Assembly (NCBI GenBank): GCA_022450155.1
Contig: JAKUQR010000007.1
Location: forward strand, 1 to 58,745
Source of the DNA: Gammaproteobacteria bacterium
GTDB taxonomy: Bacteria > Pseudomonadota > Gammaproteobacteria > Arenicellales > UBA868
Reading direction: 5' to 3'
DNA: 58,745 bases
Under the pieces are notes generated by a model. The model saw only the letters and a list, made by a program, of their open reading frames with translations, was not told where the DNA came from and searched no databases. Positions 11,015 to 17,123 of the stretch are shown one piece after another. A program made the position numbers and the translations under genes. Numbering within the stretch: the stretch's first letter is position 1; every line of letters begins with the position of its first letter.

Positions 11015-11974
11015 GTGACCCACTCGGGGCATCGACACAAACAGGTCTTGGTAACGGGTGGGGCTGGTTTCCTGGGTTCTCACCTGTGTGAGGTTTTGGT
11101 CGAGGAAGGGGCAGATGTATTGTGTCTGGACAATTTCTACACCGGGTCAAGAGTCAACATACAGCACCTGCTGGGGAAGCCGAACTTCGAATTGCTTCGC
11201 CACGATGTTACTTTTCCGATATATATCGAGGTTGATGAGATCTACAATCTGGCCTGCCCAGCTTCGCCGATTCATTATCAACACGATCCTGTGCAGACTA
11301 CAAAAACCAGCGTTCACGGTGCAATCAACATGCTGGGACTGGCCAAAAGGACCGGTGCCCAAATTCTTCAAGCGTCGACCAGCGAAGTGTACGGTGACCC
11401 CGAAGTACATCCGCAGCCCGAAGACTACTGGGGGCATGTCAATCCGATTGGTCCGCGCTCTTGTTACGACGAGGGCAAACGATGTGCAGAAACCCTATTT
11501 TTTGATTACCACAGACAGCACAATCTTCCGATCAAGGTTGCCCGCATCTTTAATACTTATGGCCCGAGGATGCATCCCGATGATGGTCGGGTGGTGTCTA
11601 ATTTCATTGTGCAGGCACTGAAAGGAGAATCCTTGACGATTTACGGGGATGGTTCACAGACACGCTCATTTTGTTACGTCGATGATCTTGTGGATGGGTT
11701 GGTACGCCTAATGCGGACGGATGACCATTGCACCGGTCCGGTAAATCTCGGCAATCCAGATGAGTTTCAGATTCAGCAGCTGGCAGACAGGGTATTGGCC
11801 CTGGTCGGTTCGAAATCGAACATTGTCTACAAGGAGCTGCCGCAAGATGATCCACAGCAGAGACGCCCTGATATCACACTGGCAAAGGCGCAGCTGAACT
11901 GGCAGCCGAGTATTGCGCTGGACGAGGGATTGCGCAGAACCGTTGAATATTTCAGGTCACTGCTGGCGCAATGA
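11015..11974 (+). CDS. UDP-glucuronate decarboxylase-type NAD-dependent sugar epimerase
   Basis: 319-residue short-chain dehydrogenase of the extended class. NAD site [10 protein letters not shown] (residues 14–23), catalytic Tyr and Lys in CYDEGKR, and STSEVYGDP with the preceding [11 protein letters not shown], which is characteristic of UDP-xylose synthases (UDP-glucuronate to UDP-xylose) rather than of 4-epimerases. The product would feed surface polysaccharide, but no glycosyltransferase or UDP-glucose dehydrogenase is nearby, so this is an isolated gene. GTG start at 11015, with no better start available. The 129 bp downstream is structured. Confidence 0.85.
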
Positions 11975-12012
11975 GGTCCCAAAGCAGGACGACTCTGGCA
12001 GCTCTCTGACGA

Positions 12013-12058
12013 CTAGAGTTTCTAGCTCAGGAGGTGACGTAAGCTCATCTGGTGAGCT
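12013..12058 (+). promoter_or_regulatory. Structured leader with full-length Shine-Dalgarno and alternative hairpins
   Basis: Three elements are seen. CTAGA-GTT-TCTAG (12013–12025) is a small hairpin. AGGAGGTGA (12029–12037) matches the whole anti-Shine-Dalgarno of 16S rRNA but has no start codon at normal spacing. AGCTCA occurs at 12024–12029 and 12042–12047, and either copy can pair with TGAGCT at 12053–12058. Mutually exclusive pairing of this kind is what attenuators and riboswitch-like leaders use. A regulatory role is inference. Confidence 0.45.
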
Positions 12059-12111
12059 ACCCGCTGACGCAGACTGACGGCTCCTCAATTTCAGGAGCAC
12101 GTTATGCATAA
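12052..12111 (+). CDS. Possible 19-residue leader peptide coupled to the next gene
   Basis: GTG at 12052 opens 19 codons (MSYPLTQTDGSSISGARYA) that end in TAA at 12109, six bases beyond the start of the 84-residue gene at 12104. Translating it would open the hairpin at 12080–12098 that hides the downstream ribosome site. The weakness is spacing: 14 nt between the 9-nt Shine-Dalgarno sequence and the GTG, unless the hairpin at 12042–12058 shortens it. Hypothesis only. Confidence 0.25.
   Translation: MSYPLTQTDGSSISGARYA
12080..12098 (+). promoter_or_regulatory. Hairpin covering the Shine-Dalgarno of the small membrane protein gene
   Basis: GCTCCT (12080–12085) is perfectly complementary to AGGAGC (12093–12098), loop CAATTTC. 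The right arm contains the AGGAG ribosome site of the ATG at 12104. A folded leader would therefore lower translation unless opened by an upstream ribosome or factor. Confidence 0.5.
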
Positions 12112-12358
12112 TCTGCAGGAGTATGGTCTCTGGCTGGTGCTGGTGACCATCAATGCTGTTATCGTCAGCCAATGGGTGGATCAGCTGATCGCCATGTCAG
12201 GTGAGGCAGCGGGTCTTGCTGCCGGCCTTTTTCTAAGTATCTTTCTCGCCAGTCTGATGTTTTTACTGATTGGTGGGGTGATCTCGCGGTTGGATCGACG
12301 GCGGAACGAAGAGAAGCTTCGAGCAATTAGAGCCTTAAAAGCTGTGGCCGTGATCTGA
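12104..12358 (+). CDS. Small two-helix membrane protein, unrecognised
   Basis: 84 residues that I cannot place in a family. Two hydrophobic stretches, about residues 7–25 (WLVLVTINAVIVSQW) and 37–61 (AGLFLSIFLASLMFLLIGGV), are followed by a basic, cytoplasm-type tail (RLDRRRNEEKLRAIRALK), so an N-in/C-in hairpin in the inner membrane is likely. AGGAG lies 6 bases before the ATG and is inside a hairpin. It sits alone between the sugar decarboxylase and the dehydrogenase genes. Reading frame, ribosome site and composition support a real gene. Confidence 0.6.
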   Translation: MHNLQEYGLWLVLVTINAVIVSQWVDQLIAMSGEAAGLAAGLFLSIFLASLMFLLIGGVISRLDRRRNEEKLRAIRALKAVAVI

Positions 12359-15595: not shown

Positions 15596-17123
15596 CGTCA
15601 GGCATTTCAGACTTGCGTCTTTTAACAAAATCTTTAAGGGCTTCATCAATTCCGGGATCGATGGGTGGCGGCTCATATTCAGCCAGGGTGGTTTTCCATA
15701 TCTGGTTTGCCCGTTTGGCCGCGTCTAATGCACCTTCCGATTCCCATTGTTCAAAGCTGTTATTGTCAGCGGTGGTGGATCGATAGAAAGCTGTTTCGAA
15801 ATTAGATTGCGTATGGTCACAGCCCAGAAAGTGATTGCCCGGCCCAACCTCGCGTATTGCATCCATGGCCTGCCCGTTTTCAGAATCATCAACACCGGAC
15901 AGGAAAACTTCAATCATTGCTGCCTGATCGGCATCTAGAATAAACTTTTCGTAGCCCATGGAGAGTCCCCCCTCCAGCCAGCCGGCGGTGTGAAGCATAA
16001 AGTTAACCCCCGCAAACATCGCGGTCTGCAGCGTGTTAGCAGACTCATAGGCTGCCTGGGCATCTGGTAGTTTGGAAGCGCACAAGCCACCGCCACTCCG
16101 ATAAGGCACACCCAGGCGTCGTGACAGAGCCGCCGTAATTAGAAGAACCATAGACGGTTCTGGCGTGCCGAATGTCGGCGCCCCCGATTGCATGGATATA
16201 GCGCTGCTGAATGTGCCGAAAATCACAGGTGCCCCAGGTCTGATTAACTGGGTAAAGGCGAGGCCGGCCAGCGCTTCGGCGAGGATCTGAGTACAGGTAC
16301 CGACAACTGTGACAGGCGACATGGCGCCGGAAAGTATGAAAGGGGAAATGACGGTGGCCTGATTGTTTTCAGCGTAGACGCGTGCCGCCCCCAGCATGGT
16401 CGCATCATAAGTCATCGGAGAGTTTGCATTAATGAGACTTGTGATAACGCAGTTTTTATCGACGAAGTCTTCTCCAAAAACAAGTTTTGCCATGTCCACA
16501 GAATCTTGCGCTCTTTCCGGAGCCGTAACCGAGCCCATAAAAGGCTTGTCGGTCCAACGTAGATGGCTGTAGATCATATCCAGATGCCGCTTATTCACCG
16601 GTATGTCTACGGGCTCACACAAAGTTCCACCGGAATGGTGCATCGCGGGTGTGCTGTAGGCCAGTTTGGTAAAGTTCTCAAAGTCCTCAAGTGTTGCGTA
16701 GCGACGCCCCTTATCCAGATCGTGCACAAAAGGTGGCCCGTAAGCTGGCACCAGGACGCAATGGTCGCCGCCAATCTTGACGCTGCGTTGTGAGTTCCGG
16801 GCATGTTGAACATACATCCCCGGGGCAGACGCCTGGATGATCTCTCTGCACATGTTTTTTGGGAAACGAACACGCGTACCATCGATCTTTGCACCGGCTT
16901 TTTCGAAAAGAGATAAAGTGGGTTGGTCGTCTTTGAATTCAATGCCGATTTCCTCGAGGAGGATTTCGGCATTGGTTTCGATTGTGATCAGCAATTCTTC
17001 GCTGGCCATTTCATAGACCGGCACCTTGCGTGTGATATAGGGCACACTCCGAGCGGATGTAGTGGCCCGTTTTGCCCGTTTGGCCTCTCTTGCGCTTCCG
17101 CGTTTTTTCCGGCGCGTGTTCAT
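15585..17123 (-). CDS. MttB-family (trimethylamine methyltransferase-like) protein without pyrrolysine
   Basis: 512 residues with a basic N-terminal extension (RRKKRGSAREAKRAKRA) followed by a TIM-barrel methyltransferase of the MttB superfamily, recognised from segments such as YSTPAMHHSGG, SLINANSPMTYDATM and SGAPTFGTPEPSMVLL. Characterised non-pyrrolysine relatives demethylate glycine betaine and pass the methyl group to a corrinoid protein. The frame is uninterrupted, so no amber-coded pyrrolysine is used. No corrinoid protein, activase or GcvT-like gene is in the window, so the substrate is unknown. etfBA lies head-to-head 510 bp away, which suggests, without proving, a link to quaternary-amine oxidation. 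Confidence 0.85.
   Translation of the reverse strand: MNTRRKKRGSAREAKRAKRATTSARSVPYITRKVPVYEMASEELLITIETNAEILLEEIGIEFKDDQPTLSLFEKAGAKIDGTRVRFPKNMCREIIQASAPGMYVQHARNSQRSVKIGGDHCVLVPAYGPPFVHDLDKGRRYATLEDFENFTKLAYSTPAMHHSGGTLCEPVDIPVNKRHLDMIYSHLRWTDKPFMGSVTAPERAQDSVDMAKLVFGEDFVDKNCVITSLINANSPMTYDATMLGAARVYAENNQATVISPFILSGAMSPVTVVGTCTQILAEALAGLAFTQLIRPGAPVIFGTFSSAISMQSGAPTFGTPEPSMVLLITAALSRRLGVPYRSGGGLCASKLPDAQAAYESANTLQTAMFAGVNFMLHTAGWLEGGLSMGYEKFILDADQAAMIEVFLSGVDDSENGQAMDAIREVGPGNHFLGCDHTQSNFETAFYRSTTADNNSFEQWESEGALDAAKRANQIWKTTLAEYEPPPIDPGIDEALKDFVKRRKSEMPDVNY

Follow-up and report, generated by a model that had tools for sequence, protein, structure and literature searches.

The window, that is the whole stretch of 58,745 nucleotides analyzed here, belongs to a gammaproteobacterial genome of 3.2 Mb. 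The leader of interest lies between two genes of the forward strand. Upstream, 11015–11974 (+) encodes an NAD-dependent sugar-nucleotide epimerase-type protein, which we take to be UXS; this gene is a possible source of read-through mRNA, and no terminator-like site was found in 11900–12200. Downstream, a frame at 12104–12358 (+) encodes a hydrophobic, all-helical protein of 84 residues, and is followed on its 3′ side by an isocitrate/isopropylmalate-dehydrogenase-type gene. The sequence elements listed in the original prediction are all present where it placed them. AGGAGGTGA at 12029–12037 (+) is the single copy in the window when both strands are scanned. AGCTCA is found at 12024 and 12042, and TGAGCT at 12053. 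GCTCCT (12080–12085, +) and AGGAGC (12093–12098, +) form the arms of a second hairpin, the 3′ arm containing the Shine-Dalgarno (SD) sequence of the small gene. A GTG at 12052 opens a frame of 19 codons (12052–12111, +), the stop of which ends at 12111, past the small gene's ATG at 12104. Elsewhere in the window, an Rfam match to PYLIS_3 at 15986–16085 (−) is barely over the gathering score (38.4 versus 38), and falls within a gene of the MttB family, the frame of which is free of internal stops.

These elements had been interpreted as a regulated leader in which two copies of AGCTCA compete for a single TGAGCT, ahead of a peptide translationally coupled to the small gene. Only the downstream pairing is kept beyond the genus. 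The upstream copy reads GCTCA in G001 and G002, and no equivalent was seen in the leaders of G005 and G010. The strong SD sequence AGGAGGTGA lacks one base in both congeners with readable leaders, G001 and G002; it is present in the window, is not conserved, and on this comparison is probably without function. The 19-codon frame exists in all three genus members read, yet is not kept in the family: 6 of 21 family leaders have no GTG at the start of the peptide, and the other 15 give anything from 3 to 39 codons. In the window the frame begins 5′ of the predicted start of transcription. An RNA switch operating through competing hairpins was dropped when matches to the models described below proved to have a −10-like hexamer and to involve repair genes.

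The small protein is conserved in relatives, as had been anticipated. Its identity is 81–83% in two congeners and, over 61 residues, 36–38% in two other genera, and a profile search finds it in 23 of the 33 genomes of the family sample at E ≤ 0.05, the match in G012 being doubtful. UXS adjoins the small gene in 15 of the 16 loci L009–L024, the exception (L015) beginning near a contig end. In genus g6, UXS is followed instead by a dehydratase-type gene (4/4), and two small genes of this genus found nearby also carry the palindromic box described below. The protein matches no curated family at the cut-off, and AlphaFold2 predicts it to be helical over most of its length (mean pLDDT 80.1, pTM 0.44).

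The downstream pairing corresponds to a palindrome, AGCTCATCTGGTGAGCT at 12042–12058 (+), and its equivalent is present in all 25 small-gene leaders read, from six genera; it is the first of the predicted hairpins. The leader of G003 is cut off by a contig end, and matches in G012 and G014 to model R3 (see below) are outside these 25. All are of the type CTCA-N5-TGAG, three ending in CGAG and one in TGAT, and the box lies ∼60–70 nt 5′ of the start codon. A hexamer CAnnnT lies 12–13 nt downstream of the box in the small-gene leaders, and is CAGACT at 12070–12075 (+) in the window, 13 nt after TGAG and a 3/6 match to TATAAT. With transcription predicted to start at about 12082, the centre of the palindrome (12050) is near −32, i.e. 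on the −35 position. The sequence at that position, ATCTGG, has a 1/6 match to TTGACA, and no standard promoter was found there. Alignment of 36 sites gives a consensus of about GTGGCTCAC-n3-GTGAGCCAC, and in a MAFFT alignment CA.A.T is kept in the hexamer. The score used to pick hexamers for the box-site list and for both swap tests favored A2 and T6, so that the fixed letters are partly built in there; the MAFFT alignment and the WYL-locus offset test below are independent of that pick. We take 12042–12058 to be, most likely, a DNA activator site arranged like those of the WYL-family activator DriD with a different half-site, and its binding is predicted. Two other readings, a pseudoknot of the loop of the first hairpin with CAnAnT, and a TTGAAA-type promoter 5′ of that hairpin in genus g4, were considered by eye only and dropped.

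How general is the box? Covariance models R1 and then R2 were built from the small-gene leaders and used to search the family, order and class. The layout of box and hexamer is also found before other genes at these levels, encoding CinA, RmuC, ARPP-1, HIRAN, RecA, RecC-type, Lhr-type, T5orf172 and IS1595-type proteins and frames of 54–55 residues. Pfam matched 8 of ten representatives (the L117 protein and one 55-residue frame were without match), and the targets so supported include CinA, RecA, Lhr-type, Exonuc_V_gamma, HIRAN and ARPP-1; RmuC and other names outside this set were assigned by reading translations. Matches L129, L159, L164, L166, L177, L179, L184 and L185 were judged doubtful by eye. 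The sequence-only model R3 was made from 36 of 47 sites, the others being left out by judgement, and both R2 and R3 were trained on these box sites. Applied to the own genome, R3 finds four sites at E ≤ 3. The best is the window site (E = 7e-5), itself a training row, followed by a site before an Lhr-type gene whose ATG is 6 nt after the hexamer (0.033), one before CinA and then RecA (0.040), and a weak match with no clear gene behind it (1.8). Ahead of a RecC-type gene, one gene away from the WYL gene of this genome, stands a box with two mismatches, and the same place gives R3 E-values of 0.116 in G003 and 0.006 in G007. Because the same box stands before cinA–recA, the lhr-type gene and, weakly, the recC-type gene, the 84-residue membrane protein would be a member of a DNA-damage regulon.

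Some of the box-bearing genes have features of their own. The 6-nt gap between hexamer and ATG at the Lhr-type gene (L273 549–600) is short, and its mRNA may be leaderless. The 54–55-residue frames are of two kinds, with ETLRPI- or ESLRPL-like starts (L096, L105, L111, L148, L150, L151, L152, L160 and L167); the first kind follows a 2′-5′ RNA ligase-like frame in L096 and L105, and the single representative that was run gave no Pfam match. The box also precedes IS1595-type transposase genes in L118, L130, L131 and L176 (by Pfam for L131 and by reading for the others), as if a mobile element had borrowed the damage promoter of its host.

The second hairpin had been said to hide the ribosome site of the small gene, and comparison of leaders bears this out. 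In 16 non-redundant small-gene leaders (of 21, near-identical or N-holding ones having been removed) pairing between the 11 nt following the −10 and the SD region of the same leader averages −10.05 kcal/mol, compared with −7.56 kcal/mol for swapped leaders (P = 0.00005; the P values of the swap tests ignore ancestry). Sliding windows of 8 nt, with the same removal rule, locate the strongest pairing at nt 1–8 after the −10, about −6 to +2. For this window the small-gene set (16 of 23 leaders used) gives −7.24 kcal/mol (P = 0.02), and a second set, 15 of 17 leaders from small frames, ARPP-1 and two other genes, gives −6.61 kcal/mol (0/5000 permutations). A third set, of 11/11 leaders including recA, cinA and HIRAN, has no leader-specific SD pairing (−2.56 kcal/mol, P = 0.63). 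The second set has a further signal, without explanation, in a far-upstream window (−24 to −16; z = −3.9). Judged by these comparisons, the SD-hiding hairpin is real and is kept by matching changes in both arms, the pairing being stronger within than between leaders.

The position of the 5′ arm suggests how such a hairpin could act. In the window it overlaps the predicted +1, and opening the SD region costs 8.6 kcal/mol in read-through RNA, against 2.6 kcal/mol in RNA beginning at +1. A start at +1 also reduces the cost in 17 of 19 small-gene leaders, 11 of 12 second-set leaders and 5 of 5 controls (drawn from 23, 17 and 10, those with no recognized SD or with N being dropped); because all five controls behave in the same way, this measure alone does not discriminate. 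We propose that RNA reading through from the upstream gene would contain both arms, so that its SD would be hidden, while RNA begun at the box promoter would lack all or part of the 5′ arm and its SD would be freer. Alternatively, the hairpin may work within the promoter-born mRNA itself, in repression or protection of the 5′ end, with no gating of read-through. This is unlikely, though it carries appreciable weight. Within the window's genus the 5′ arm is shifted ∼3 nt downstream compared with most relatives, and therefore about four of the six pairs would outlast a start at 12082, which is itself predicted. Against this, most relatives have their 5′ arm within nt 1–7 after the −10, mostly upstream of a normal +1, pairing with the SD drops from nt 7 onward, and there is the fall in opening cost in the window.

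What might bind the box? The genome encodes a protein with HTH, WYL and WCX domains outside the window (G000:C9:102295–103266). Its best match among solved structures is PafBC (E = 1e-14 over residues 143–323), and it is closer to this than to entry 8tp8 (E = 4e-4), deposited as a DeoR-family regulator and presumably DriD. Exactly one WYL-domain protein is present in 27 of the 33 family genomes, including this one, and none was found in six. Across 369 genomes of the class, 26 have both the motif (R2 match at E ≤ 0.01) and a WYL orthologue (1e-40), 15 the motif only, 70 WYL only and 258 neither (P = 8e-8, or 2e-7 without the own genome), counts in which the doubtful matches from the class-wide search were retained. 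Moreover, of 59 motif matches outside the own genome, 17 have a WYL gene no more than 2 kb away; one palindrome enters these figures twice, once for each strand. Since R2 had been trained on the motif, a reverse test was started from the WYL proteins. Similarity to the WYL protein was the sole criterion for choosing 30 loci. Of these, 12 contain a strict box with a hexamer at the expected distance, compared with no strict boxes in 20 Markov resamplings; the 18 without include the own WYL locus. In 57 WYL loci (the own one included twice) there are 19 distinct palindromes, with the hexamer at 11 nt in six and at 12 nt in nine, while no other offset from 2 to 29 has more than three; this count assigns one extra nt to the box, and demands A2, T6 and a 4/6 match identically at each offset. 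There is also evidence against an activator of this kind, in that 70 of the 96 class genomes with a WYL orthologue have no motif match at E ≤ 0.01, and 15 of the 41 with a motif match have no WYL orthologue at 1e-40.

Some WYL loci have a more elaborate organization. In L222 and L224 a single palindrome has a −10-like hexamer to either side, so that promoters next to the WYL gene may run in both directions. L183 and G354:C2:2794360–2795417 are two WYL genes in one genome with a box match 14 bp after each, and in L183 an ARPP-1 gene follows the WYL gene and box.

Could a different regulator, such as a LexA-like repressor, instead use the palindrome as its operator, the proximity of the palindrome to WYL genes being indirect? 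Operators that are palindromic and overlie a promoter are typical of repressors, and the targets are SOS-like genes. Yet a repressible promoter is not evident, given the poor −35 sequence, the spacing to the −10 is fixed, and the linkage of box and WYL gene holds in loci picked by the WYL protein alone; we regard this explanation as improbable. Also improbable is a cis-regulatory RNA in which both hairpins switch in the mRNA in response to ligand, temperature or protein: the second hairpin is a real pairing and the first has three pairs changed on both sides (9 of 500 shuffles scored at least as high for covariation), yet the leader has no Rfam match, and the first hairpin keeps its bases (CTCA/GAG), a constant length and a fixed distance to the hexamer, and is found again ahead of unrelated repair genes as well as next to WYL genes.

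The interpretation that we prefer is that 12042–12103 probably comprises a WYL-activator promoter and a short leader with a translation-gating hairpin, placing the 84-residue protein in a DNA-damage regulon. A wHTH–WYL–WCX activator would bind the palindrome, centred near the −35 position, and recruit RNA polymerase to the weak −10 at 12070–12075, most likely upon DNA damage. The hairpin would then leave the SD accessible mainly in transcripts begun at this promoter.

WYL damage activators and SD gating are each already known. In the accessible part of PMC12340889, DriD of Caulobacter crescentus is described as a WYL activator responding to DNA damage independently of SOS, whose sites are pseudo-palindromes on a poor −35 with a weak −10 at constant spacing, and whose targets are DNA-repair genes and the small membrane protein didA. 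The box shares the location near −35, the fixed distance to a weak −10, and targets that include DNA-repair genes and a small membrane protein. It differs in its half-site, about GTGGCTCAC in the 36-site consensus where that of DriD is ATACGAC-n7-GTCGTAT (PMC12340889), and for this reason we do not file it as a DriD site; cinA–recA is also among the targets here, and is not listed for DriD in that part of the paper. PafBC of mycobacteria is likewise a WYL activator of the DNA damage response, and is a heterodimer, whereas a single-chain WYL gene is present here, its product a predicted activator of DNA-damage genes. The gating has a precedent in gene e (lysozyme) of phage T4, where the SD of long transcripts is buried in a helix, and transcripts from a promoter at the helix, without its 5′ part, are translated (PMC3014915). 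The leader resembles this in having its SD in a helix and a predicted promoter start at the 5′ arm; it differs in that the promoter is a predicted chromosomal damage promoter, and in that pairing occurs at some box targets and not others. DidA, the DriD target, is a protein of 71 residues with a single membrane helix that binds FtsN and thereby blocks division (PMC4211646). Like it, the present protein is a small membrane protein under a WYL activator, here predicted; unlike it, it has 84 residues and is predicted to be helical over most of its length. Its resemblance to division inhibitors of the DidA/SidA kind is confined to size, hydrophobic helices and predicted control. By analogy the protein may be a damage-induced effector of the membrane or envelope, perhaps an inhibitor of division.

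In the open-licence literature, with subscription journals barely covered, we found no description of the box, its gammaproteobacterial regulon or its combination with an SD gate. To the full scheme we give about an even chance: a gammaproteobacterial damage regulon controlled by a WYL activator through GTGGCTCAC-n3-GTGAGCCAC, comprising cinA–recA, lhr-, recC-, rmuC-, ARPP-1- and HIRAN-type genes and several small proteins, in which the DNA following the −10 doubles at some targets as an anti-SD arm, so that only promoter-born messages would be translatable, and in which the 84-residue protein would act at the membrane as an effector induced by damage and perhaps arrest division. If this is correct, a WYL activator would control recA and further repair genes in this lineage, together with related genes of other gammaproteobacteria, and the box would make the regulon searchable. 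Promoter-gated translation, known from phage T4, would extend to chromosomal stress genes, and the small proteins would constitute a family of candidate damage-induced membrane proteins.
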